This document shows positions 11,160 to 29,940 of a stretch of 34,311 bases of DNA, piece by piece. The notes beneath the pieces are model-generated. The model was not told the DNA's origin. It worked only from the letters and a program-made list of their open reading frames with translations, and ran no database searches. Numbering within the stretch: the stretch's first letter is position 1; every line of letters starts with the position of its first letter. Both the position numbers and the translations under genes were made by a program. The stretch spans positions 1 to 34,311 of the forward strand of contig CALYOS010000026.1 in NCBI GenBank assembly GCA_945267035.1, given 5' to 3'. The stretch comes from an uncultured Neisseriaceae bacterium. Lineage in GTDB: Bacteria; Pseudomonadota; Gammaproteobacteria; Burkholderiales; Neisseriaceae.

Positions 11160-13058
11160 TTAATGGTTCATGGTCAGCAGCAGATGGTTCATGCGTTTAA
11201 CAAATGCTGCCGGATTGTCCAGTTTACCGCCTTCGGCTAGTAAAGCCTGATCATAAACCAGTTCAGCCAATTCGGTTCGTTGCTCATTATCCTGTTCCGC
11301 AGCAATTTTTTTAATTAATGGATGATCAGGATTAATTTCCAGTGTTGGCTTGGTGTGCGGGATTTGCGCACCAGCACCGGAAGCTTCCAGCATACGTGCC
11401 AAATGCTGACTCATATCATGCTCACCCACAACCAAACAGGCAGGACTTTCCGTTAGGCGGGCAGTGGCTCGTACAGACTCTACTTTATCACCTAAAGCAG
11501 CTTTGATTTGTTCTACCACTTCTTTGTTGTCTTCTTCGGTTTTCGCCTGAACTGCTTTCTCTTCTTCATCGGCCAGGTTGCCCAGATCCAAGGAACCTTT
11601 AGCTACGCTAACCAGTTTTTTTCCGTCAAATTCAGTTAGGCTGTTAACCACCCATTCATCGACACGGTCTGTCAGCAACAATACTTCTACGCCTTTTTTC
11701 AGGAAAATTTCCAGATGTGGGCTGTTTTTCGCTGCTGCGTAGCTGTCAGCAGTGATGTAGTAGATTTTGTCCTGTCCTTCTTTCATTCGACTAATATAGT
11801 CAGCCAAAGAAACGGTTTGTTCGGCATGATCATTATGCGTTGAAGCAAAACGGCACAGTCCGGCAATTTTGTCTTTATTGCTGTAGTCTTCGGCGATGCC
11901 TTCTTTCAGGACATTACCAAACACGTTCCAGAATTCGCTATATTTTTCTGGTTGATTTTTCTGTAGATCTTCCAGCAGGGACAAGACTTTTTTAACGCTA
12001 CCAGAGCGAATGGCATCCAAGTCACGGCTTTCCTGCAAAATTTCACGCGAAACGTTCAAGGGCAGATCACTGCTGTCAATCACCCCACGAATAAAGCGCA
12101 AATAAGTTGGCATTAGTTTTTTGGCATCGTCCATGATAAATACGCGTTTTACGTATAATTGGACACCATGCTTGGGCTCACGTTCGTAGAGATCAAAAGG
12201 TGCATGTTTGGGCACATATAATAGTCCCGTGTATTCATGCCGTCCTTCTACTCTAAAGTGCGTCCACGCTAAGGCATCATCATAATCATGGGAAACATGG
12301 CGATAGAAGGTCTGATACTGCTCATCAGTGATTTCGTTTTTGGGACGTTGCCATAACGCCTGAGCTTGATTCACTACTTCCAGTTCGTCAGAAGTTTTAA
12401 CATTGCCTTCTTCATCGTATTCCGGTGCTTTTTTCATGTAGATAGGCACAGAAATATGATCGCTGTAGGTAGTGACAATGCGGCGTAAAGTCCAGTCGGA
12501 TAACAGGTCTTTTTCGTCATCTTTCACATGCAAGATGACTTTTGTTCCACGCTCGGGTTTAGAAATGGGTTCAACGGTGAATTCACCATCGCCAGCACTA
12601 ATCCAGCGCACTGCTTCATTGTCGGCACTGCCAGCTTTACGACTTTCCACTGTTACTTTGTCGGCCACAATAAAGGCAGAATAAAAACCCACACCAAACT
12701 GACCAATTAAATTGGCATCTTTTTTATCATCTCCAGTCAGTTGCTCCAGAAATGCTTTGGTGCCTGACTTGGCAATGGTACCGAGATGTTCGATGATTTC
12801 AGCTTCATTCATGCCGATACCATTATCTGCTACAGTAATGGTCTGTTCTTCAGCGTTGGCAGTTACAGTGATTTTGAATTCTGTATCATCGCCCAACAAA
12901 CTAGCATTATGTAATGATTCGAAGCGCAGTTTGTCGCAAGCATCAGCGGCATTGGATATGAGTTCACGCAGAAAAATCTCTTTGTTACTGTACAATGAAT
13001 GAATCATCAGCTGTAACAATTGTTTCACTTCAGTTTGAAAACTATGTGTCTGTTTCAT
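11160..13058 (-). CDS. htpG: HtpG, bacterial Hsp90 chaperone
   Basis: A 632-residue ATP-dependent cytosolic chaperone that remodels client proteins with the DnaK system. The N-terminal GHKL ATPase domain shows the Bergerat-fold motifs in order: catalytic Glu32 and Asn36 in [21 protein letters not shown] at 78-83, the lid segment GTIAKSGT (93-100) and [12 protein letters not shown] (118-129). The middle domain contains the conserved [14 protein letters not shown] segment, whose Arg contacts ATP gamma-phosphate. A C-terminal dimerisation domain follows. Length is close to E. coli HtpG (624). The ATG at 13058 has a GGGA ribosome site. A heat-shock type promoter lies just upstream, and a strong palindromic terminator closes the single-gene unit. 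Confidence 0.98.
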
Positions 13059-13100
13059 GATTTTCCCGAAATATCTAAAATTGGTTATTGTTGATTTAAG

Positions 13101-13127
13101 ATAGGGGTTGATTTAAGCAGTTTCAAG
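13101..13127 (-). promoter_or_regulatory. sigma32-type heat-shock promoter of htpG
   Basis: On the minus strand CTTGAAA (13121-13127) is followed after 13 bases by CCCCTAT (13101-13107), a close match to the sigma32 consensus CTTGAAA-N11-16-CCCCATnT. It lies 42 bases above the htpG ATG, so the leader would be about 35 bases. Confidence 0.72.
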
Positions 13128-13490
13128 ACGATAGAAAAAGACAATTAATTAGATTTTTATGACAAATACATTTAAGTTTTAATAAATGCATTCGCTACAA
13201 GCGTTTCTGCAAAACATCACTCACCTAAAGCGTGATGACTTATCGCGTTTTGCCTGTTCATTAAAGCGGTTTTAATTTTGCATGACGTGCTGTCTAGACA
13301 CTTTTTTCCCGTACTTTTCTTAAAACCCTGCCCTCCTTCACTTAACCACTGGGTAGTCTACTCAACAAAATTCTGATATGTTAAAATTAGGGCAATTTAT
13401 CAAATATTTAATGGCAATATGATTGTCCAAGGTTTGGTGCTTTGGCGTTATTTTATGCCTTAAATCAACATATTAAGAGGGATTTTTAAT
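13128..13490. other. divergent intergenic region before yebC
   Basis: No gene seen. It separates the htpG promoter from yebC and should hold the yebC promoter, which I could not define. The yebC ribosome site AGAGGGA lies at its right end. Confidence 0.35.
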
Positions 13491-19976: not shown

Positions 19977-20114
19977 TTCTTGTCCTCACAGCCTGATATG
20001 ATTTGATTACAATAATTCATCTAAAAATTCGATTAAGTCAAAAATAAAGTGGCTAATCATGCCATGAATTAAACTATTGGACAAGAATTGTAAAAAATTA
20101 TGTCAAGTAAATAT

Positions 20115-20157
20115 AAAAAAGGCAGAATAATTAGACAAATTATCTAATTTTTCCGCC
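20115..20157 (-). terminator. rho-independent terminator after the NIT1-type amidase gene
   Basis: On the minus strand a 15-base arm (20143-20157) pairs with 20121-20135, including a perfect 7-bp AATTAGA/TCTAATT apex stem, and is followed by six T residues (20115-20120). It begins 20 bases after the stop of the amidase gene. Confidence 0.85.
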
Positions 20158-20177
20158 CTGATTGCTCTAGAAGAAGA

Positions 20178-20978
20178 TTAAAGCAGCCGATGATTCAAAG
20201 CAGGTAATTTGCTGCGTACCATATCTAACTGATTTGCATCCAAAGTAGCGGTAATCACCCCTTCTCCCTCAGGCAAACAAGCCAACACTTCACCCCAAGG
20301 ATTAATAATCATGCTGTGTCCATAAGTACGGCGTCCATTTTGATGGATTCCGCCCTGAGCTGATGCCAAAACATAACACTGATTCTCTATCGCCCTGGCA
20401 CTCAACAGGGTTTGCCAGTGAGCTTTACCAGTGGTAAAAGTAAATGCAGCAGGCAAAACCATCACTTCAAATGGTAACTGCGCTCGGAAAAACTCGGGAA
20501 AACGTAAATCATAGCAAATACCCTGCGCCACAGCGATCTTGTCTACCTTCAGTTCAGGCACTTCTAGCCCACGCATTATGGTATTTTCTTCAGCATAAGA
20601 CTCATTGGCTGACTGAAAACCAAAGAGATGCATTTTATGATATTGACCAATTAATTGACCCTGATCGTAAACCAACATAGTATTTAAAACTTTGTCTGGA
20701 TCGGTACTTTGTAATGGTATGGTACCGGCGAATAACACAATATTTAATTGTGCCGACAATTCACTCAGACTTTGCTGTAACACGCCTTCACCCAATTTCT
20801 CGGCTATGCCCACCTTATCCCGATCATCCTGCCCCATTAGCGGCCAGTATTCTGGTAATACTACCCAGCGAGCCCCAGTCTCAGCCGCCTGTTTCACCAG
20901 TGCCGACATCTTCTCGACATTTTCCGCCACATTGGTACCGGATACCATCTGCACCACAGCAACTTTAATATCTTTCAT
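20178..20978 (-). CDS. carbon-nitrogen hydrolase, NIT1/deaminated-glutathione amidase type
   Basis: A 266-residue nitrilase-superfamily amidase. The catalytic triad is present: Glu43 (LPEYWP), Lys115 (YHKMHLF) and Cys155 (GICYDLRFPEFF). The KMHLFG, GICYDLRFPE and AAFTFTTGKAHW segments match the NIT1/NIT2/YbeM branch. NIT1 members hydrolyse deaminated glutathione, a metabolite-repair role; omega-amidase activity is the main alternative. I start at the ATG 20978, which has a GGAG site; the frame is open to 21041 but the extension is not conserved-looking. It lies 138 bases downstream of the desaturase gene on the same strand and could receive read-through from it; it ends with its own terminator. 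Confidence 0.9.
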   Translation of the reverse strand: MKDIKVAVVQMVSGTNVAENVEKMSALVKQAAETGARWVVLPEYWPLMGQDDRDKVGIAEKLGEGVLQQSLSELSAQLNIVLFAGTIPLQSTDPDKVLNTMLVYDQGQLIGQYHKMHLFGFQSANESYAEENTIMRGLEVPELKVDKIAVAQGICYDLRFPEFFRAQLPFEVMVLPAAFTFTTGKAHWQTLLSARAIENQCYVLASAQGGIHQNGRRTYGHSMIINPWGEVLACLPEGEGVITATLDANQLDMVRSKLPALNHRLL

Positions 20979-21116
20979 TACTCCAGCCCCTAAGCTATGT
21001 GTATAGCGTTTATTTAAAACCATTTCTGCTTCATCTGGCAAATTATTCGCTTACTGAAAGCAGAAAAATAGACGAATTTGAATTTTTTTGACTGAATATC
21101 GTTGGCGTGGGCCGCA

Positions 21117-22208
21117 TTATTGACGATAATTTTGCCCCATTTTGCGAAGAAATACCTGCTGTGAGCGCAGCAAACCGCTTAAGGACAAAGCCTGATAATC
21201 CAGCTTAAACTCACGCGCTATATGCGCCACGATTGGCGTCAACTTATGATAATGTCTGTGGCTGACCCCCGGAAAGAGATGATGAGTGAGATGCAAATTC
21301 AGTCCCCCCAGCCAGTACTCCAGCCAGGCATATTTCAAATGCCAATTTAAGGTTGTATAAAATGCATGCTGCAATTTTCCATGCTCAAACCGCCCTTGTG
21401 GAGGTGCCTGATAAAAAGTGGCTTTTGCCCAATGACTCCCCAAAATTAGAATGACAAAAATCAGTGATGAACACATCTGACTCAAACAATATACCAGCAC
21501 AATAACCCAGAAGTTAAACTGCGGACACACCCATGCCGGAATAACAAATGCCAGAATAATATGCAGCATTTTGGATAACAAAAACACCAGCCACCCTTTG
21601 ACACCGGGGTAAGTAAATTTACACACATTGAATTTCATGCCTAACCTATCCTGCCAATCGAAACACCAAACAATGGTCGGAAAAGTCATCGCTGCCACCA
21701 AAGGCCAGTAATATTGCTGATAGCGCATAAACCAATGGTGCACCTGAAACGGTGTTTGACGTAATACCCCGTTATAATCAATATCTAAATCATAAAACTC
21801 AACATTGGTATAGGGATGATGTTGCAGCACATGCCGTATTCGCCAACACTCTGGATCTATGCCCAGCGGAATAGTAATCCAAAAATTGAGCCATTTATTG
21901 GCTTTTGGAGAACGAAAAAAAACATTATGCGAGGCATCATGCACCACATTAATCGCCAACAGTAAGGCAAAAGTAATAAAGAAAAAATAGAATAGACAAA
22001 AAAACAGCAATTTTGTTTGATGCAACGCTGCAATATAAGCACCGGCACACAACAAACAGAGTGCAACCAGCTTGAATTTCATGCCCCAATCAGCATAACG
22101 ATGATCCTGATGCCGGCATAAATACTCTGCCAGCGCTGTTTCAAGGGACTCTTTTAAACGCTGATCTTGTTGCCGATCATAAATCAGCTCCAGACAATTT
22201 GGCTTCAT
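21117..22208 (-). CDS. membrane fatty acid desaturase
   Basis: A 363-residue integral-membrane di-iron desaturase. Three histidine boxes are intact: HDASH (90-94), HVLQHH (126-131) and HLTHH (306-310), with four or more hydrophobic segments between them. The order and spacing fit acyl-lipid/acyl-CoA desaturases of the front-end or omega type; there is no fused cytochrome b5 domain. Regiochemistry cannot be told. The segment NVVHDASHNVFF is typical of the family, and GGLNLHLTHHLFPG matches the third box of DesA/linoleoyl-type members. Its ATG overlaps the stop of the upstream oxidase gene by four bases (ATGA, 22205-22208), so the two are coupled. It is the last gene of the lipid cluster. Electrons would come from a ferredoxin or reductase encoded elsewhere. 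Confidence 0.92.
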   Translation of the reverse strand: MKPNCLELIYDRQQDQRLKESLETALAEYLCRHQDHRYADWGMKFKLVALCLLCAGAYIAALHQTKLLFFCLFYFFFITFALLLAINVVHDASHNVFFRSPKANKWLNFWITIPLGIDPECWRIRHVLQHHPYTNVEFYDLDIDYNGVLRQTPFQVHHWFMRYQQYYWPLVAAMTFPTIVWCFDWQDRLGMKFNVCKFTYPGVKGWLVFLLSKMLHIILAFVIPAWVCPQFNFWVIVLVYCLSQMCSSLIFVILILGSHWAKATFYQAPPQGRFEHGKLQHAFYTTLNWHLKYAWLEYWLGGLNLHLTHHLFPGVSHRHYHKLTPIVAHIAREFKLDYQALSLSGLLRSQQVFLRKMGQNYRQ

Positions 22209-23341
22209 GAGGATGCCTGTTTAGCACAAGGGATGGTGGTTTTATGACCATTTATCAAAGTATAGAGCAAAATCACCACACCGTGTATAGTCAATAACCA
22301 AATGATAACCTGCCAGTAAAGCTGTGGCCAATCAAATAGATATAAAAACACTACGGGCATACTTAAAGTTAATATGGTCCAGCCAATCAATCCCCATATC
22401 CGTCCTTCTGCCATTGCCCCAAGAAAAATGGTCCCCGCGGCTAAAAAACCAAAAAGAGTATATTGGCTAAACGTGATATTAGTCATACCATAAGCATATT
22501 TATATACATAAGCAATAGTCAGCGCAAAAAGCAGAATTCCACCCAAGGTCAACAGGAAACTGGAAAAAACCCATTTTTTCGTCGGTGCGGCGGGGACAAA
22601 AGAAATGTTCAACAATTGCATGAAGGGATAATTACTCGCCAGCAATGGATTTTGCGTCTTGATTCCCGGTGAACCGTAGCTAACCTTACCTGCAGGCATC
22701 ACAGCAAAGCTACCAAACAACTTGTCCCAAATAATAAATGAGCCGCCAAAATTACGATTAGAATAATGTCTGTCATTGATATGATGTACTCGGTGGTGAT
22801 TCGGGGTAACAAAAATCTTTTCTAGAATACCCAATTTTGGGGTGACGTCGTTATGATTAAAAAACTGAATAGAATAATGAAATATCGATACTGTCAGAAA
22901 TATTTCTGTTGAAACCCCAATAAATGCCAGTACAATATTTAACACGGCCGACATTAAAGACGAGTACCATGAATTCCTGACCGCTAAAGATAAATTAAAG
23001 TGTTCGCCCTGATGATGAACAATGTGCACCGCATAAAGCAGACGAAACGTATGTAACAACCGATGTTGCCAATAAAAACAGAAATCCCAGGCTATAAAAG
23101 CAAATATCCAGGCAAAAATGACTGGCACATGTGCAAATAAATTCAAACTGCAATACTGATAAACCAGTGCATAGCACAGAATTTCCAGCCCCCTAAAAAA
23201 CCACAAAACAATATGACCAGAATTTAAATTAAACATAATATCCAGCCAGTTAATGTGCTTCTTCTTAACTATTTTGAGTACTAATGCTTCAATATAAACA
23301 CTGCATAGCATGAAAATGATTGGCATAGTTAGCTGATTCAT
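22205..23341 (-). CDS. sterol-desaturase-fold hydroxylase, alkylglycerol monooxygenase-like
   Basis: A 378-residue membrane di-iron oxidase of the fatty-acid-hydroxylase superfamily. Histidine boxes are HRLLH (93-97), HIVHHQGEHFNLS (106-118) and NHHRVHH (181-187), followed by NRNFGGSFIIWDKLFGSF. The HH-x2-E-x-[FY]NLS-x2-[VL]R segment and TPNHHRVHH...IIWDKLFG resemble animal alkylglycerol monooxygenase (AGMO) more than sterol C5-desaturase. As in AGMO, a further block of membrane helices follows the catalytic part (about 245-370). AGMO cleaves ether lipids by hydroxylating the ether-bearing carbon; whether this protein does so is unknown. AAGGGAA precedes the ATG at 23341. It is coupled to the desaturase and is 264 bases downstream of the adenylate-forming enzyme gene. 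Confidence 0.88.
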   Translation of the reverse strand: MNQLTMPIIFMLCSVYIEALVLKIVKKKHINWLDIMFNLNSGHIVLWFFRGLEILCYALVYQYCSLNLFAHVPVIFAWIFAFIAWDFCFYWQHRLLHTFRLLYAVHIVHHQGEHFNLSLAVRNSWYSSLMSAVLNIVLAFIGVSTEIFLTVSIFHYSIQFFNHNDVTPKLGILEKIFVTPNHHRVHHINDRHYSNRNFGGSFIIWDKLFGSFAVMPAGKVSYGSPGIKTQNPLLASNYPFMQLLNISFVPAAPTKKWVFSSFLLTLGGILLFALTIAYVYKYAYGMTNITFSQYTLFGFLAAGTIFLGAMAEGRIWGLIGWTILTLSMPVVFLYLFDWPQLYWQVIIWLLTIHGVVILLYTLINGHKTTIPCAKQASS

Positions 23342-23605
23342 CGATTCCCTTCACTTCATTAGATCTGTTCTGAATGGCTATGTACCCTGTCAGTGCAACC
23401 TAGATATCACCATATCATCAATGCATATAGGTAGTGCTCATTATTTTTTCCCTTTTTTGCAGACCACAGGTGTAATAACAAACATCATAACTTGCTCACA
23501 ATTCGAGACTTTACTCTAAATCAAACTTAGGGCATATTGGAATTGATACTGATGTTTTTAAAATGGAAATGAATAAGCATATTGGCATTTATTCGCTTAT
23601 ACAAC

Positions 23606-24886
23606 CTATTTTTCCCGAATAATGCGGCGTTTTTTATGCATAAACGATACTGGAATAGTGTCGACAGATTTCAGAATCCAATCTAATTGATCAATCTGCG
23701 CACCTTGCTGTAGAAAATGCTTTTGCAACGCCAGCTGACAAGATTGCAGACTGGAAAGTGCACAGCATCCTATTAACTCGATTTGATCGGTAGCATGTTG
23801 AATCAAGCGGTAATCACTGTTTAACGGCAAATGATTGGCAATAACGCGACTACAATAATCGGAAAAAATGGTTATAGACTCATTACATTGATTTTTCAAA
23901 ATAATTTGATCGTCATGCCTACCCTCAATGGTCGCTATCGCCATTCCTTGCCGACCACATAAACACGGTTCTTCACGCCGCACCAGAATATCATCCAATC
24001 GATAGCGTACGATCGGTTGCGTTTCACGGGTAAAATCGGTAATAACAGGAACGAAACGCTTTTCTTCCAGCCACTGTGGCTCGACTAAAATAAACTCTTC
24101 ATTCAAATGCAACACACCATGAGCACAAGTTGATCCTAAAAATCCTTCAGTCGCCTGATACACTTCGCCCAATCGATTAAAAACTTGAGCTAACATTTGC
24201 CGGTCATGATATTCCAGTACTTCCGCGGCCGAAATAACCAGATCCGGAGAGATTGAGAGATTGCCATCTTGTTTCGCACGAGCTAAGGCACACAACACCT
24301 GCGCCGGGGCAATAATGATCGTTGGCTGATATTCTGCCAAGGCATGCAATTGCTGTTGAAAATGATCAAACAAACCAAAAAAGCGTAACTTGAGCCAACT
24401 GGTATCAACACTATGATAAAGATGATTATCTGCCCGCAGAAACAAAGCTACACGCTCATGCGCCAGTAAACCCTTGGGTAACATTTTAGCCAACATAGCA
24501 CCAGCCCACATTTGCTGCTCTTTTGGGCTAACAACAAACAGCCCCCGACTGCCGGATGTTCCAGATGACAGCCCCACACTGTATTGACCAACCTTTGGGG
24601 AAAAATCCTTAGATTGTTCGCTTTGGCGGGCGCAATCTAATAACGTTTCCAGCTCTAATCCAGCAGTGTTCATTGCATCAAAATGGCGCATCATGATCTG
24701 TTTATTCATTAAAGGCCATTGGTCAAATTCAAGTGTGGCAAAACGCCGGAAGTAAGGGCTTTTACTGAGTATTTTTTGTCTAAATCGGGTTAGTTGTTGT
24801 TGTTGATATGCTTGCAGTTCCTCCCTGCTGGCAAACGACAAACGTTTGGTTTTCCAGTAGTGCCACAACACTTTCAACGTATTCAT
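23606..24886 (-). CDS. adenylate-forming enzyme, F390-synthetase-related (PaaK-like)
   Basis: A 426-residue member of the ANL adenylate-forming superfamily in the phenylacetate-CoA ligase/coenzyme F390 synthetase branch. The phosphate-binding loop is LSSGTSGSRG (106-115). YQATEG (243-248) is the A5-like motif, RYRLDD (294-299) the A7-like Asp, and CLCGR (308-312) with EGRHDD (321-326) mark the hinge region of PaaK-type enzymes. It should activate a carboxylate as an acyl-AMP, possibly going on to CoA ester or another product. The C-terminal domain seems short compared with full ANL ligases (about 500+), as in its clade. It starts within the stop of the metallo-hydrolase gene (ATGA, 24883-24886). 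In this operon it occupies the role OleC has in olefin clusters; that parallel is inference. Confidence 0.85.
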   Translation of the reverse strand: MNTLKVLWHYWKTKRLSFASREELQAYQQQQLTRFRQKILSKSPYFRRFATLEFDQWPLMNKQIMMRHFDAMNTAGLELETLLDCARQSEQSKDFSPKVGQYSVGLSSGTSGSRGLFVVSPKEQQMWAGAMLAKMLPKGLLAHERVALFLRADNHLYHSVDTSWLKLRFFGLFDHFQQQLHALAEYQPTIIIAPAQVLCALARAKQDGNLSISPDLVISAAEVLEYHDRQMLAQVFNRLGEVYQATEGFLGSTCAHGVLHLNEEFILVEPQWLEEKRFVPVITDFTRETQPIVRYRLDDILVRREEPCLCGRQGMAIATIEGRHDDQIILKNQCNESITIFSDYCSRVIANHLPLNSDYRLIQHATDQIELIGCCALSSLQSCQLALQKHFLQQGAQIDQLDWILKSVDTIPVSFMHKKRRIIREK

Positions 24887-25692
24887 ATATAGCCTTCATG
24901 ACTAAGACAGATATTGACCTGAGATTGGCGCGATAAAAGCTGTAAATTGCGCAACGTCTGATAATAGGCGCGCGGATTTTCCATCACCAGATGAGCCAGA
25001 CGAGATGGACTTTTTAACTGTTGATAATTAGCCGGGGTCCAGGCAGCATCACTTGCCAGTAGTGTCCAACCTTGATCAGTCTGTACGAAGGCACCAATAT
25101 GACCACTGGCGTGACCTGGCAAAGGAACAATAAAGACCTGTTGATGGCTTTGGGGTAACTCATAGCCATCAGTAAATGGCCAAAGTTGCTGTGGTAAAGC
25201 AGATTGAGCAAAACTTTCCACAAAAGTAAGCCGTTGTTCAAAATCAGGCGGAATTAAATTTGGCACAAATCCATGCCTTAAAGCAGAAAAACCACGTAAT
25301 AAACGCATTTTCTGCCATCCTTCACCACTGCAAATAAACTTACTTTTGGGAAAATCACGCAGACCAGCAATATGATCACCATGAAAATGGGAAAGAATAA
25401 TTGCATCTATGCTGGCTAAATCAATGCCTAAAGCCAGAAACTGCATCTTCATCGATTCTTGTTGTTGTAGATATACAGGGGTTAGCTTGCGATAAAATTT
25501 AAAAATCCCAGTCTGCGTGCTTTGATAAAAATAGTCGGCATAACCCGTATCCCATAACCAGCGTTTACTACCCACTTCAATTAACCATGTTCGTGCAGGA
25601 AATTTGCAGATATTCCACCCCGCTCCCTTTTGCGCCATACAGGCAAGATGCGTGCAGTAGCCTGCTTCAAAGGTGGTTAGCTTGGCCATCAT
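24883..25692 (-). CDS. metallo-beta-lactamase-fold hydrolase
   Basis: A 269-residue MBL-fold protein. The metal-binding set is complete: SHFHGDH (His102, His104, Asp106, His107), His194 in PLPGHASGHIG, Asp215 in ASDAAW, and a late His265. The overall pattern resembles lactonase and thioesterase-type MBLs rather than beta-lactamases; no signal peptide, so cytoplasmic. I start at the ATG 25692 because it makes an ATGA overlap with the epimerase stop, like every other junction in this operon; the frame is open to 25719. It may hydrolyse an acyl-thioester or a lactone formed by its neighbours, filling the hydrolase slot that OleB has in olefin clusters. That function is inferred from the operon only. 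Confidence 0.88.
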   Translation of the reverse strand: MMAKLTTFEAGYCTHLACMAQKGAGWNICKFPARTWLIEVGSKRWLWDTGYADYFYQSTQTGIFKFYRKLTPVYLQQQESMKMQFLALGIDLASIDAIILSHFHGDHIAGLRDFPKSKFICSGEGWQKMRLLRGFSALRHGFVPNLIPPDFEQRLTFVESFAQSALPQQLWPFTDGYELPQSHQQVFIVPLPGHASGHIGAFVQTDQGWTLLASDAAWTPANYQQLKSPSRLAHLVMENPRAYYQTLRNLQLLSRQSQVNICLSHEGYI

Positions 25693-26699
25693 ACTGTTTT
25701 TCCGTTTTGGCTTAACCATTCAGCCGTTAGATTGATTCCTTCTTCTAGGCTATAGATGGGTTGATAGCCAAGGCGTTGATTAGCCTTTTCAGGATTCAAA
25801 GTCATGTCGAAATATAGCGCGCCGACACTGTAGCGCGTTAATGTTGGTTCTTTTCCTGTCACCTTCGCCACCAATTCACTGCAACAGGCAAGGGCAAAAA
25901 GCACTGGATAAGGGAAAGAGCGGATACGATAATCAATATGCAACCTATCTTTAAGCAGCATATTGAGCATGGTTTTAAGCTGCATAGGCTGTTGATTGGT
26001 GATATTAAAGATTTCCCCAGATAGTAACTGCTCATTGGTGGATGCCAAAAATAACGCCTGCACCACATTTAAGACAAAAGTCAGATCTATCACTGCCTCC
26101 CCAGCACCGGGTAAAGGCAAATTCCCTTTAGTCCGGGCAATCAAAGCCAGCACGCGTGAAATCAACACCCGATCATGAGGGCCGAAAATACCGCGTGGTC
26201 TGAGAATGATAAAAACGGTATCAGGAAAAGAATGCACATTTTGCTGGATCATTTGTTCAGCCAAATATTTTGTTGAAGCATAATGATTTGCAAAACGCTT
26301 TGCCAATTGATTCTCGCTGATATTCTGATGGGAATGAAAATCAAAATACAGCGATGGCGTCGATACATGTACAAACCGCTTAATACCCAGCTGACCCGCC
26401 AATTGTGCCAAACGGGAAGTTACCACCACATTTGCTTGGTAAAAATCCTGATAATCACCCCATGGGGATGATAAAGCCGCACAATGCCAAACCACATCAC
26501 AACCTTGTAAAAGGTTCAAATAATCCTCATCGGAGGCAGTAACCAGATCCAAAGCTATGAATTGAGCCCCAATTTGGCGTAATTGTTCCCCCGCAAGCTT
26601 ATTGCGACCTGTTGCACAAACCTGATAACCTGCCTGTAACAGCCATTGCGCCGCATTTCTGCCTAAACCACTGGTAGCACCAGTTACCAAAAACTTCAT
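25689..26699 (-). CDS. NAD(P)-dependent epimerase / 3-beta-HSD-type reductase
   Basis: A 336-residue extended short-chain dehydrogenase. The Rossmann motif GATSGLG (7-13) and the catalytic YxxxK (Tyr140, Lys144, in HYASTKYLAEQM) with the upstream VSTPS (112-116) are intact. RPRGIFGPHD is typical of the 3-beta-HSD/OleD-like branch. In OleABCD pathways the OleD member reduces the 2-alkyl-3-ketoacid made after condensation; the position directly after a KAS III-like gene suggests the same chemistry here. Its ATG overlaps the KAS III stop by four bases (26696-26699), and its stop overlaps the MBL start. Substrate is not established; a sugar epimerase role is less likely given the context. Confidence 0.87.
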   Translation of the reverse strand: MKFLVTGATSGLGRNAAQWLLQAGYQVCATGRNKLAGEQLRQIGAQFIALDLVTASDEDYLNLLQGCDVVWHCAALSSPWGDYQDFYQANVVVTSRLAQLAGQLGIKRFVHVSTPSLYFDFHSHQNISENQLAKRFANHYASTKYLAEQMIQQNVHSFPDTVFIILRPRGIFGPHDRVLISRVLALIARTKGNLPLPGAGEAVIDLTFVLNVVQALFLASTNEQLLSGEIFNITNQQPMQLKTMLNMLLKDRLHIDYRIRSFPYPVLFALACCSELVAKVTGKEPTLTRYSVGALYFDMTLNPEKANQRLGYQPIYSLEEGINLTAEWLSQNGKTV

Positions 26700-27721
26700 G
26701 GCAGTAAAATCATTCCGGCAAAGGTCAGACCAGCAGCGGTGCCGATGAGCATCGCCGGATGATTAGCTTGAAATCGATCGGTAATGACCGCTTCGTGCAA
26801 AGCACTGGGAATAGATGCAGCCACCTGATTACCACGAAATCGATAAATATCGATCAACGCTTGCTGGGAAACTTTTAACCGTTTACGCATATGTTCCAAC
26901 GATAGATGACTGGCCTGATGTGGAATAACGGTGACAATATCTTCTAATTGTAAACCACTTAACTGCATAAGCTTTGTCATAAAAGGTTCAATTAAAGAAG
27001 AAGCAAGCTTAAATAAAGGCTTACCCTGCATGTGAAAAAGAAAATCGCTATCTTTCATTCCAGTTCGCAAATTACAGCGAGTACCACCACCTTTTATCTG
27101 ACACAGATCGATACCCGCAGTATGCGTTTCCTGTAAAAACGATAGAATCCCACTTTGACCATCGCCCTTTTCCACAATAGCACAAGCTGCTCCATCCCCA
27201 AAAATCATTGAGGATTCTTCATCCTCCCAGTTTAATCCTCGGGATGCCAGTTCAGCTGAAACAATAGCGATACGTTGATAACTTCCAGAATTAATTAAAC
27301 AACCTGCCAAATTCAAGGCAGAAATAAAACTAACACAACTAACATTGACATCCAATGTTGCGGTTTTATCAGGCAAATTACTGGCCTGCAAAATATGTGC
27401 CGCACAATAAGGTAACGCTTGTACTTTCAATGCAGAAGCACAAATCAATAAATCAATAGAATCTGCTGCGATATGATGACGAGCTAAGGCATCATTCAAA
27501 GCCTGTGCGGCGAGATCAGCCTGATTAAGCTGATAATCAGCATGATACCGATATTCAATCCCTGAGCGTTTCAGAGTATAGCCATGAGGTTTATTGAGTT
27601 TTTGATCAAGTTCGTCAGAGGTTAACTTGCCATCTGGCAAAGCAACACCAGTTGATATGATTTTAAGGGGAATAAAATGTTGAGCTTTTTGGATAAATTG
27701 GTTATTAAAATGCACTTCCAT
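26696..27721 (-). CDS. KAS III-like condensing enzyme (thiolase fold)
   Basis: A 341-residue 3-oxoacyl synthase III family enzyme. The Cys-His-Asn triad is intact: Cys129 (NVSCVSF), His268 (IPHQAS) and Asn298 (RGNQVAASIPSAL). The 30-residue His-Asn spacing is the same as in FabH. The N-terminus (TSDELDQKLNKPHG...RSGIEYRYH) differs from housekeeping FabH (TRTGI type) and resembles accessory KAS III enzymes of specialised lipid or aryl-lipid pathways. It probably condenses an activated acyl chain with another acyl or malonyl unit. It is the first gene of the cluster, with a plausible promoter 28 bases upstream. The ATG at 27721 has only a weak ribosome site; a GTG two codons later is possible. 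No acyl carrier protein gene is nearby. Confidence 0.9.
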   Translation of the reverse strand: MEVHFNNQFIQKAQHFIPLKIISTGVALPDGKLTSDELDQKLNKPHGYTLKRSGIEYRYHADYQLNQADLAAQALNDALARHHIAADSIDLLICASALKVQALPYCAAHILQASNLPDKTATLDVNVSCVSFISALNLAGCLINSGSYQRIAIVSAELASRGLNWEDEESSMIFGDGAACAIVEKGDGQSGILSFLQETHTAGIDLCQIKGGGTRCNLRTGMKDSDFLFHMQGKPLFKLASSLIEPFMTKLMQLSGLQLEDIVTVIPHQASHLSLEHMRKRLKVSQQALIDIYRFRGNQVAASIPSALHEAVITDRFQANHPAMLIGTAAGLTFAGMILLP

Positions 27722-27748
27722 ACCTGAAATGTAACCAAAACATTAACC

Positions 27749-27777
27749 ATTTAAGCACTTAATATCGACAATGTAAA
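27749..27777 (-). promoter_or_regulatory. putative promoter of the lipid cluster
   Basis: On the minus strand TTTACA (27772-27777) is followed after 17 bases by TTAAAT (27749-27754). Spacing is ideal and the boxes are moderate, and the position is right for a leader of about 20 bases before the KAS III ATG. Confidence 0.42.
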
Positions 27778-28650
27778 CAAAATTTAGCTTAGATTTATGC
27801 CATCAATATAAATTGCCTTTGCAAAATACTGCATGACGATTTGAAAAATTTAATGATTTCAATTTTGACAAGATAGCGAACATTATCCATACCCATCCAC
27901 CGATATTTTGCCCCCCAAAAGTATGGCAATTTTATTAGCGAATTACCACAGGTACTACTGCATGTTTTTAAACATAGCAGCGATCAACAGGGTCAAAGCC
28001 CACGGTCAAGCCATCAATTTTATTCATATTTAAGGAAATACTTTAATAGCAAAAAAAAAGTATTAGATATTCTCCTATGATCAACAGATGACTGAGCCAA
28101 AGCAGCGATAGTAGTTCATGGTTTAAGCATAAAATAGCCAGATGCTACTCATTTAAAACCTAGAATAACTTTGTCTTCAGTTAATAAGAGGGATGTAGAA
28201 AGATCTCAATGCGCACCTTGTTGAAAAACCAACTTAGGAGCAAAGTAAAAAAGGCATATAGAAAACCATTTTAGATCCATACAAATTGGGGGATTCTTTT
28301 ATTAGAGTAAAATTTTTTCTTTAGACACCTGCAATAGCTCAACATGATCTTGAAGAAATAGCCAAGAATAGGCAGAAAAAGAACATAAACTTTTGATTTT
28401 AGAATTTTCGACAATAATGGCAATGATTTTCTAAGGTCAATCAGTGCTTAAAGTCGCACTGAATAACAAAAAGTTCGTGCTGATTGATTTGCTACAATGG
28501 AACCAATAGCCACATGGATAATCAAATGGTTACACCAACAATAAAACTAACCTAATTTGCTGAATAGGATCTGTAATCTAGAAGATATTAGCAACATAGA
28601 TAAAGAGTATTTAGCGGATAGAGCTAAAAGCATGCCACAGAAATCTGTGT
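27778..28650. other. long gene-poor stretch, perhaps decayed coding DNA
   Basis: No intact gene. On the plus strand several short protein-like stretches occur in different frames: PAIAQHDLEEIAKNRQKK near 28330-28385, and NLEDISNIDKEYLADRAK near 28575-28630 running on to a stop at 28655. They may be relics of a lost gene, but I cannot join or name them. The terminator of zur, if any, would be at the right end; no clear hairpin is seen. Confidence 0.25.
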
Positions 28651-29178
28651 TCAGTTAGGCTGTTTATTTTGCTGCTGGCTTTCACCCGTCTGGCGACACT
28701 GATTACACATACCAGTTAAAACAATATGTTCATCATTGAGCAGAAAACCACTGTCTGCCACTCGTTGACGTAACGCCAGCCATTCTTGACTCATACTGAG
28801 CTCCTCAACGGCACCACATTGATTGCAAACTAAAACAAAATCACTATGATGGATGGGATCTTGCCGACAAAGATCGCCACACTCATGCTGCACATGACGA
28901 CAAAGAATATATCCATTGATTGCTGGTATTTTGTGAAGCACGCCCTGCTCAGTCCAAAAGTCTAATGCTCGGTAAGCAGTAGGCGGGGCGATTGTATTGC
29001 TGCTATTGTGCTGCATACATGCCAATACCTGATACGCCTTAATCACACCAGTCATACCCAATACAATATCCAGAACTTGCGCTCGCAGTTGCGTAATCGT
29101 GGCTCCCTGCAGCTCACATTGCGCTAAAATCCGTGCTTTTTCTGCCGTATTCGCTGAGCAGGATAACTTGCCAGTCAT
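28651..29178 (-). CDS. zur: Zur, Fur-family zinc uptake regulator
   Basis: A 175-residue Fur-superfamily repressor. The N-terminal winged helix (about 24-90) contains TITQLRAQVLDIV and the PPTAYRALDFWTEQGVLHKI recognition region. The dimerisation domain has the structural zinc cysteines in two C-x2-C pairs (Cys118/Cys121 and Cys158/Cys161) and a regulatory-site segment HECGDLC (98-104) with HH at 110-111. HECGDLC-type residues and the TAYRALDFW motif point to Zur rather than Fur. With zinc bound it should repress zinc-uptake genes, none of which lie in this window. It follows ydfG after only nine bases and starts with an AGGA site inside that gap, so the two form an operon. Confidence 0.88.
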   Translation of the reverse strand: MTGKLSCSANTAEKARILAQCELQGATITQLRAQVLDIVLGMTGVIKAYQVLACMQHNSSNTIAPPTAYRALDFWTEQGVLHKIPAINGYILCRHVQHECGDLCRQDPIHHSDFVLVCNQCGAVEELSMSQEWLALRQRVADSGFLLNDEHIVLTGMCNQCRQTGESQQQNKQPN

Positions 29179-29187
29179 ACCAAAATC

Positions 29188-29940
29188 CTATGCCAGATCG
29201 CGGGTCACGCTCAGACCGGCAAAAGTTTGTGATACTGGCATAATTTCAATGTGATTTACATTGACATGAGCGGGAGTTTGATAAAGCCATAAAATCGTAT
29301 TGGCAATATCTTCGGGTTTGAGGTAACTGATATTTTCATACACCGCTTGAACCCGATCTTCATCACCACGAAAGCGCACATTGGAAAATTCAGTATCACC
29401 ACATAAACCCGGCGCAACATTGGTTACACGAATTCGGGTACCAACCAAATCAGTACGTAGATTTAAACTGAATTGACGCACAAAAGCTTTCGTGGCCCCA
29501 TACACATTACCACCTTTATAAGGCCAGCTACCGGCAGTAGAACCAAGATTAATAATATAACCTTTATTATTCTGCACCATCTGTGGCAGTATTTTTCGAG
29601 TCACATAGGTCAAACCAAGAACATTGGTATGAATCATCCTTTCCCAATCGGCAAAATTAGCTTCCTGCGCTACTTCCATCCCCAAAGCTAATCCGGCATT
29701 GTTGACCAGCAAATCAATTTGGGCCCATTGTTCAGGAATTGATGCCAGCGCCTGATCTACACTATTGGTATCAGTCACATCCATTTCCAGTGGTAAAAAT
29801 GCAGCACCCAGTTCCTGACTTAAATGCTGCAACTTATCCTGCCGCCGAGCAGCACCGATGACCTGATAACCAGCTTTAACCAAAGTGCGGGAAATACTGG
29901 CGCCAAAACCTGCAGAAGCACCTGTAACAAGAATAGTCAT
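29188..29940 (-). CDS. ydfG: YdfG-type SDR, 3-hydroxy acid dehydrogenase
   Basis: A 250-residue classical short-chain dehydrogenase. The cofactor motif is TGASAGFGA (6-14), the NNAG motif at 80-83, and the catalytic Ser134, Tyr147 and Lys151 (YGATK) are present. Length and sequence style fit YdfG, the NADP-dependent 3-hydroxy acid dehydrogenase that oxidises L-allo-threonine and serine and reduces malonic semialdehyde. I use the ATG at 29940 with a GGGG-type site upstream; an in-frame TTG at 29955 is less likely. It is the first gene of an operon with zur. A functional link between the two is not obvious. Confidence 0.9.
   Translation of the reverse strand: MTILVTGASAGFGASISRTLVKAGYQVIGAARRQDKLQHLSQELGAAFLPLEMDVTDTNSVDQALASIPEQWAQIDLLVNNAGLALGMEVAQEANFADWERMIHTNVLGLTYVTRKILPQMVQNNKGYIINLGSTAGSWPYKGGNVYGATKAFVRQFSLNLRTDLVGTRIRVTNVAPGLCGDTEFSNVRFRGDEDRVQAVYENISYLKPEDIANTILWLYQTPAHVNVNHIEIMPVSQTFAGLSVTRDLA

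Follow-up and report, generated by a model that had tools for sequence, protein, structure and literature searches.

Introduction

The condensation of two acyl chains by enzymes of the CorB and OleA types is known chemistry, and OleA possesses a conserved Glu before its catalytic Cys. In the OleABCD system, which makes long-chain olefins or beta-lactones, this condensing enzyme is accompanied by an alpha/beta hydrolase (OleB), an ANL-type adenylate-forming enzyme (OleC) and a short-chain dehydrogenase/reductase (SDR; OleD). The stretch of DNA analyzed here, referred to as the window throughout (34,311 nucleotides, contig CALYOS010000026.1 of an uncultured Neisseriaceae bacterium), carries a cluster which the initial annotation described as a six-gene unit resembling a reorganized Ole pathway, namely a 3-ketoacyl-acyl carrier protein synthase III (KAS III)-type enzyme, an SDR, a metallo-beta-lactamase-fold (MBL) hydrolase, a coenzyme F390 synthetase-related enzyme and two membrane oxidases (a hydroxylase and a desaturase). 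Traced through other genomes, the first four of these form a constant unit, and the main new observation of this work is that this one core is accompanied by interchangeable enzymes of the oxidase and head-group types (the “tails” below).

The operon is real, conserved and undescribed in the literature searched: no description of the cluster was found in the open-licence literature, the search covering few subscription papers. The F390-type gene in the portion of PMC2649909 consulted belongs to another kind of cluster, and the portion of PMC9088363 holds nothing on the present one.

A Constant Core and Its Exchangeable Tails

Named genomes were scanned with an alignment of nine F390-related proteins, which gave at least 560 confirmed matches among at least 592 pattern matches. 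The best 80 of these at least 560 confirmed matches (the “best 80 loci”, a sample biased to close relatives, in which some loci end at contig ends) span 30 genera and 15 families; all four core genes are present in 77 of them and lie contiguously, in the order KAS III–SDR–MBL–F390, in 76, which bears out the initial expectation that the cluster genes co-occur in other genomes. The exceptions are L096, L099 and L102, where no KAS III gene was labelled, and L088, which is non-contiguous by the rule used. In L099 and L102 (Burkholderia/Paraburkholderia), a desaturase gene immediately precedes that of the SDR, and KAS III was not found at the locus. When all the loci fetched are taken together, 118 non-duplicate F390 rows remain after the removal of six duplicate rows (the KAS III and SDR trees contain no duplicate pair), and the complete core is seen in 107 of the 118. 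Distances between the core proteins correlate pairwise with r of 0.93–0.96 (107 loci; 500 shuffles of each pair gave 0.30 or less), while those between the core and the PAP2, hydroxylase and desaturase proteins of the window-type tail correlate with r of 0.82–0.93 (57 loci; at most 0.22 in shuffles).

The unit of six genes that had been proposed did not hold up; there is instead the four-gene core plus exchangeable neighbours, and the full window-type set of the latter includes PAP2 as well. Which neighbours accompany the core depends on the lineage, and most of them are, to judge from the families assigned, enzymes of the oxidase or head-group type. Tails were counted in 110 non-duplicate loci with a gene caller that drops some overlapping PAP2 and MBL genes, and the window-type counts were taken from BLAST labels: PAP2 occurs in 63/80, FA_hydroxylase in 57/80, FA_desaturase in 56/80 and all three in 55/80 of the best 80 loci. 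A GT21 glycosyltransferase tail, found in 12 of the 110 loci, is usually joined by an additional SDR resembling OleD (10), by a protein resembling UGT (10) and by one of 189 amino acids (8) that had no Pfam or NCBIfam match. The ATP-grasp tail (15/110) comes with GNAT-type or similar proteins (9) or with Rieske oxygenases (12), the latter being present in 12 of the 110 loci. Two further tails are rarer still, DUF3419 and sulfotransferase, each in 2/110; the sulfotransferase genes diverge from the core, from which a TetR gene separates them. Four loci carry a PAP2-type and a GT21-type tail side by side, and in locus L049 (Pseudomonas fluorescens FW300-N2E3) the core is accompanied by PAP2, the hydroxylase and two desaturases. 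Among NCBIfam models, HpnI comes closest to the GT21 protein (96 bits of 310), and the DUF3419 protein had no NCBIfam match. The GT21 and DUF3419 families act on membrane lipids, and we take them to be those of ceramide glucosyltransferase and of the betaine-lipid enzyme BtaA, respectively. Besides the 189-amino-acid protein of the GT21 tails, a protein of about 368 amino acids without a Pfam match recurs with DUF3419 or Rieske tails (Table 1).

The Operon in the Window

All six open reading frames (ORFs) of the window operon are intact and lie on the minus strand within 21117–27721, as initially annotated, and Pfam and NCBIfam families could be assigned to them (Table 1), with ACP_syn_III, Epimerase, 3Beta_HSD, Lactamase_B, FA_hydroxylase and FA_desaturase above the Pfam cut-offs. 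Neighbouring ORFs overlap by 4, 31 and 4 bases along KAS III–SDR–MBL–F390 and by 4 bases between hydroxylase and desaturase, the two groups being separated by the gap listed in Table 1. The hydroxylase, labelled AGMO-like in the initial annotation, has OlsE as its nearest NCBIfam model (66 bits against a cut-off of 475), and neither oxidase matched a solved structure by sequence at an E value of 0.01. Among the best 80 loci, the closest named ones are those of Snodgrassella alvi SCGC AB-598-O02 and of an uncultured Neisseriaceae bin, whose F390 proteins are 79% identical to that of the window. Five flanking genes of the window match their counterparts in L138, a duplicate entry of the S. alvi locus L029, at 76–88%. 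The organism, a bacterium of bee-gut type, is accordingly most likely a Snodgrassella. The window copy of the operon looks whole.

Table 1. Features of the window operon and, in their own loci, recurrent tail proteins without a Pfam match.
Feature	Position	Strand	Match or remark
KAS III-type ketosynthase, 341 aa, core gene 1	26696..27721	-	Pfam ACP_syn_III + ACP_syn_III_C
SDR, 3-beta-HSD/OleD-type reductase, 336 aa, core gene 2	25689..26699	-	Pfam Epimerase 108.8, 3Beta_HSD 78.1 bits
MBL hydrolase, lactonase fold, 278 aa, core gene 3	24883..25719	-	Pfam Lactamase_B
F390 synthetase-related acyl-adenylating-type enzyme, 426 aa, core gene 4	23606..24886	-	NCBIfam TIGR02304
Gap where relatives have PAP2	23342..23605	.	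264 bases
FA_hydroxylase-family membrane oxidase, 378 aa, tail gene	22205..23341	-	Pfam PF04116 94.4 bits
FA_desaturase-family membrane oxidase, 363 aa, tail gene	21117..22208	-	Pfam PF00487 93.7 bits
Recurrent Pfam-less tail proteins	L082 13435-14004; L166 14209-15315; L177 8092-9213		

No PAP2 remnant was found in the gap. The loss of PAP2 from the organism was, nevertheless, rejected, as an intact PAP2-type protein is encoded by a single gene on another contig (G000:C14:1755-2324) and is 52% identical (207 bits) to the operonic PAP2 of a same-genus genome; PAP2 thus appears to have been kept in the window organism, though moved to another contig. PAP2 matches above 200 bits occur in three of the five same-genus core carriers and in none of the nine other same-genus genomes, which is suggestive of a restriction of PAP2 to core carriers within the genus, and only suggestive because G000 and G001 may be close kin.

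Upstream of the KAS III gene, 930 bases (27722–28650) hold no ORF of 100 amino acids before a Zur/Fur-like regulator gene (28651–29178) is reached. An Rfam scan of window positions 20000–29500, this stretch included, gave no match, and a tRNA scan found none.

Enzymes of the Core

The residues quoted in the initial annotation for the four core enzymes hold in relatives, as counted in 107–118 non-duplicate rows. For KAS III, Cys129 is present in 105/107 rows (2 gaps) and His268 and Asn298 in 107/107, and the Cys-His-Asn triad is found in all 39 cluster proteins of the tree set. Its best NCBIfam model is NF005541 (313 bits, under the cut-off of 402). On the FabH model (cut-off 292.1), the window protein scores 188.8–189.1 bits, the cluster KAS III proteins of seven scored genomes reach 173.9–194.6 bits, all below the cut-off, and the separate FabH of the window genome reaches 431.4. 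On NF006720/PRK09258, which we take to represent OleA, the window protein attains 79–84.5 bits against a cut-off of 285, and two real OleA-type proteins 466.3 and 486.6. The tree places the 39 cluster proteins on one branch (support 94/92), eight FabH on another (99/98) and two OleA on a third (100/100); caution is due with this tree and that of the SDR, as they contain four long branches and as the KAS III (94/92) and SDR (84/65) cluster branches are below the starred level. The column of the OleA Glu before the catalytic Cys holds Glu in 2/2 OleA, Phe in 8/8 FabH and Leu or Ile in 39/39 cluster proteins. The suggestion that the enzyme differs from housekeeping FabH is, therefore, well founded, given its score under the cut-off, the separate FabH in the genome and its separate branch, which also led to the rejection of a plain FabH duplicate; its reading as an OleA failed on the score (79 bits against 285), the branch and the Glu column.

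The solved relatives closest by sequence are 4v2p (149 bits), 2ebd (128.6 bits; presumably an Aquifex-type FabH) and CorB (127.6 bits), the OleA entries scoring about 35 bits or less. As we take CorB and the ketosynthase 4v2p to join two chains, both malonate extension and two-chain joining are possible chemistries of the cluster KAS III: malonate use would be favoured because the Glu of OleA is absent, while the kinship to CorB and 4v2p leaves room for joining.

The SDR keeps Tyr140 and Lys144 in 110/112 rows (2 gaps). Among NCBIfam models, those of OleD score highest (152.6 and 159.6 bits; cut-off 580). In the tree, the 32 cluster proteins (84/65) neighbour a group of six OleD-like rows (99/96), a single one of which itself exceeds the OleD cut-off, and a third group (100/100) consists of the second SDRs from GT21 tails. 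Of its reading as OleD, the resemblance survives (best models, neighbourhood in the tree), whereas membership does not, the protein being under the cut-off and outside the OleD branch.

In the MBL protein, each of the four letters of HxHxDH is kept in 110/111 rows (1 gap), and seven metal-site-type residues are each present in 110 or 111 of 111 rows, presumably as ligands of two metals by analogy with lactonases. Its AlphaFold model (mean predicted local distance difference test score, pLDDT, 90.0) is nearest to N-acyl-homoserine lactone (AHL) lactonases and 4-pyridoxolactonase (template modelling score, TM, about 0.7), and its sequence is under all curated cut-offs (best 56.9 against 325; best AHL model 45.5 of 375).

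The F390 protein matches TIGR02304, “F390 synthetase-related protein”, at 549 bits (cut-off 251.9), and had no Pfam match. Within its SSGTSG motif, Gly109 is found in 117/118 rows and Thr110 in 110/118 (7 Ser), and the C-terminal Lys418 in 118/118. The AlphaFold model (mean pLDDT 89.8) is nearest to PaaK-type ligases (TM about 0.6, 16–18% identity), and the scores of the protein on the NCBIfam PaaK models stay below cut-off, the sequence match to PaaK being weak. With OleD-like models for the SDR, lactonases near the MBL model and PaaK-type ligases near the F390 model, the chemistry proposed for each Ole slot is plausible.

Distribution among Bacteria

The four core genes are also present in Alphaproteobacteria (plasmids of Paracoccus, Ketogulonicigenium and Rhizobium), Bacillota (Paenibacillus and Pontibacillus, where KAS III is followed by an ATP-grasp gene) and Fusobacteriota (Fusobacterium vincentii, with KAS III last), while a Pseudomonas amygdali plasmid carries the F390 gene without the other three core genes nearby. 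In Escherichia coli, a seven-gene version (with PAP2) occurs in 672 of 5,426 complete genomes, some urinary-tract strains among them, and 671 of the 672 cover at least 80% of the query; in CFT073 and JJ1887 (presumably sequence type ST131), it sits between narI and tRNA-Tyr/purU. In the 386-kilobase record NZ_CP141085.1 (locus L003), deposited as a “plasmid” of E. coli KE48, narK, narGHJI, purU and rssAB surround the operon as in the CFT073 chromosome; the record may represent a chromosomal fragment.

Proteins over the TIGR02304 cut-off were found in 11/61 relatives, 7/398 genomes of the phylum (the window included), 0/289 and 7/151 in further sweeps and 1/14 control genomes, counts that are not to be read as prevalence, because several core carriers score under this cut-off. 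Such a protein is present in five of the 14 same-genus genomes (G000, G001, G003, G006 and G009). In G006 (L138/L029), the core is intact and the hydroxylase and desaturase are only remnants (L029, about 12552–13163), and in G008 the core is broken and lies at a different site (L140, 8051–9482); the operon is, therefore, dispensable in the genus. All eight operon genes of L137, a same-genus genome, are 78–94% identical to those of L031 (Gilliamella sp. WF3-4), and the two KAS III proteins pair in the tree with support of 100/98; as these bacteria belong to different classes, such likeness suggests a transfer between bee-gut symbionts.

Pseudomonas cerasi and P. caricapapayae, which we take to belong to the same species group as P. 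syringae pv. actinidiae, have one TIGR02304 match each, inside the cluster. In a transposon screen of 3,000 mutants of P. syringae pv. actinidiae, 91 showed reduced virulence, among them one in a “Coenzyme F390 synthetase” gene with a score of 2 where the selection threshold was under 4, according to the portion of PMC9823363 consulted. The gene mutated in that screen may be the F390 gene of the cluster.

Proposed Function

We give about an even chance to the reading that the core is one unit which makes a hydroxylated lipid building block, whose tails oxidize it or attach or trim its polar head. KAS III would condense an acyl primer with a malonyl-type or second acyl unit into a beta-keto product, the SDR would reduce the keto group to a hydroxyl, the MBL protein would hydrolyse a thioester, ester or lactone to release a free acid, and the F390-related enzyme would activate the carboxylate as an acyl-adenylate and join it to an acceptor; in the window type, the membrane hydroxylase and desaturase would then oxidize the product, and PAP2 would remove or transfer a phosphate-bearing group. 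All these steps are proposed from family chemistry, while gene content, conserved catalytic residues, the predicted folds of two enzymes, the shared history and the exchange of tails are observed. In favour of the reading are the constancy of the core, the correlated protein distances, the variety of tails on one core, the retention of PAP2 in the window organism, the residues and the folds. A broader and more tentative proposal, which we hold with clearly less confidence, is that the core provides a kind of lipid backbone of its own, beside diacylglycerol and ceramide, in at least three bacterial phyla, and that each lineage plugs its own oxidases into it together with a head group of the phosphate, sugar, sulfate, amino-acid or DUF3419 type.

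A number of points weigh against the building-block reading. Part of the core is missing from 11 of the 118 F390 rows: six of them (L170 and L178–L182) show no other core gene, L140 is a broken copy, and KAS III went unlabelled in L173 as well as in the three loci named above; in Pseudomonas Leaf58, other genes are interspersed between those of the core. The correlation of distances shows shared descent rather than function, and shared history only, because the shuffles do not keep kinship. The tail counts span about 7–8 kilobases on each side of the core and not strict operons, 13 of the 110 loci have no known tail, and the head-group roles ascribed to GT21, DUF3419 and others come from family knowledge. 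As for PAP2, the protein on contig C14 narrowly misses both Pfam cut-offs (25.1 of 27; 23.6 of 27.2), and G009 and G006 (the latter about 60% complete) carry the core without a strong PAP2 match.

The best-surviving alternative, which we consider unlikely, is that the lipid produced is secreted and diffuses, for instance as a signal or an antibiotic, instead of staying in the membrane, and that the tails are the ordinary tailoring enzymes of a natural product. The patchy spread (the E. coli and same-genus fractions given above), the operon decay in sister genomes and the occurrence of lactonase and PaaK-type ligase relatives in natural-product pathways would all suit such a product, but the families of the hydroxylase, the desaturase and PAP2 are of membrane type, those of GT21 and DUF3419 presumably likewise belong with membrane lipids, and the gene maps examined show no transporter gene as a constant neighbour of the core. 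Somewhat less probable again is a functional parallel of Ole in which KAS III would link two acyl chains, the SDR would carry out the reduction, the F390 enzyme would close a beta-lactone on which the MBL protein acts, and the tail would oxidize the product: the adjacency of the SDR to OleD in models and tree, the lactonase-like MBL model, the acyl-adenylating fold of the F390 enzyme and the place of CorB and 4v2p (which we take to join two chains) among the three best solved KAS III relatives speak for it, whereas the Glu of OleA is absent from 39/39 proteins of a KAS III branch apart from OleA, the OleA structures score far below the FabH ones, and GT21, ATP-grasp or DUF3419 tails misfit a hydrocarbon product. 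That KAS III is a spare FabH whose neighbours adjust ordinary fatty acids seems very improbable. The FabH triad is retained, and the FabH model gives a higher score (189.1) than the OleA-type one (84.5); yet FabH is encoded separately in the genome, the enzyme has its separate branch, and the MBL protein, the F390-related enzyme and the exchangeable tails have no place in the scheme.

If the lipid building-block reading is true, about every eighth complete E. coli genome (672/5,426), that of CFT073 included, would carry an unrecognized lipid pathway, as would plant-, insect- and bee-associated bacteria, and TIGR02304, named only by its resemblance to F390 synthetase, would gain a function.

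Comparison with Known Systems

With FabH, the cluster KAS III shares the Cys-His-Asn triad, and FabH structures are among its best matches, whereas it is under the FabH cut-off, outside the FabH clade and has Leu or Ile in place of the FabH Phe. The MBL protein has the fold of AHL lactonases and 4-pyridoxolactonase with the full set of metal-site-type residues, yet is under the curated cut-offs; the fold and C-terminal Lys of PaaK-type phenylacetate-CoA ligases are common to the F390 enzyme, the sequence match being weak. TIGR02304 has its window member over the cut-off, and this family is named by relatedness to F390 synthetase, no function attached to it having been found in the material searched.

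OleABCD is matched in having a thiolase-fold condensing enzyme, an OleD-like SDR, an adenylate-forming enzyme and a hydrolase within one cluster. A true ole operon was, however, rejected on the KAS III scores, the KAS III branch, the Glu column and the SDR tree: a PaaK-type TIGR02304 enzyme and an MBL protein replace the ANL OleC and the alpha/beta hydrolase OleB (the Pfam scan of ten window proteins showed no alpha/beta hydrolase, and the MBL protein instead), KAS III stands apart from OleA and lacks its Glu, and the cluster adds exchangeable tails. Of the parallel Ole-type pathway first proposed, co-occurrence and the plausible chemistry of the slots have thus stood, and membership in OleA and OleD has not. 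Known enzyme families are combined here in a way that fits the tested definition of no known pathway; by membership the cluster is not the Ole pathway, and Ole serves as a fair analogy of its chemistry.

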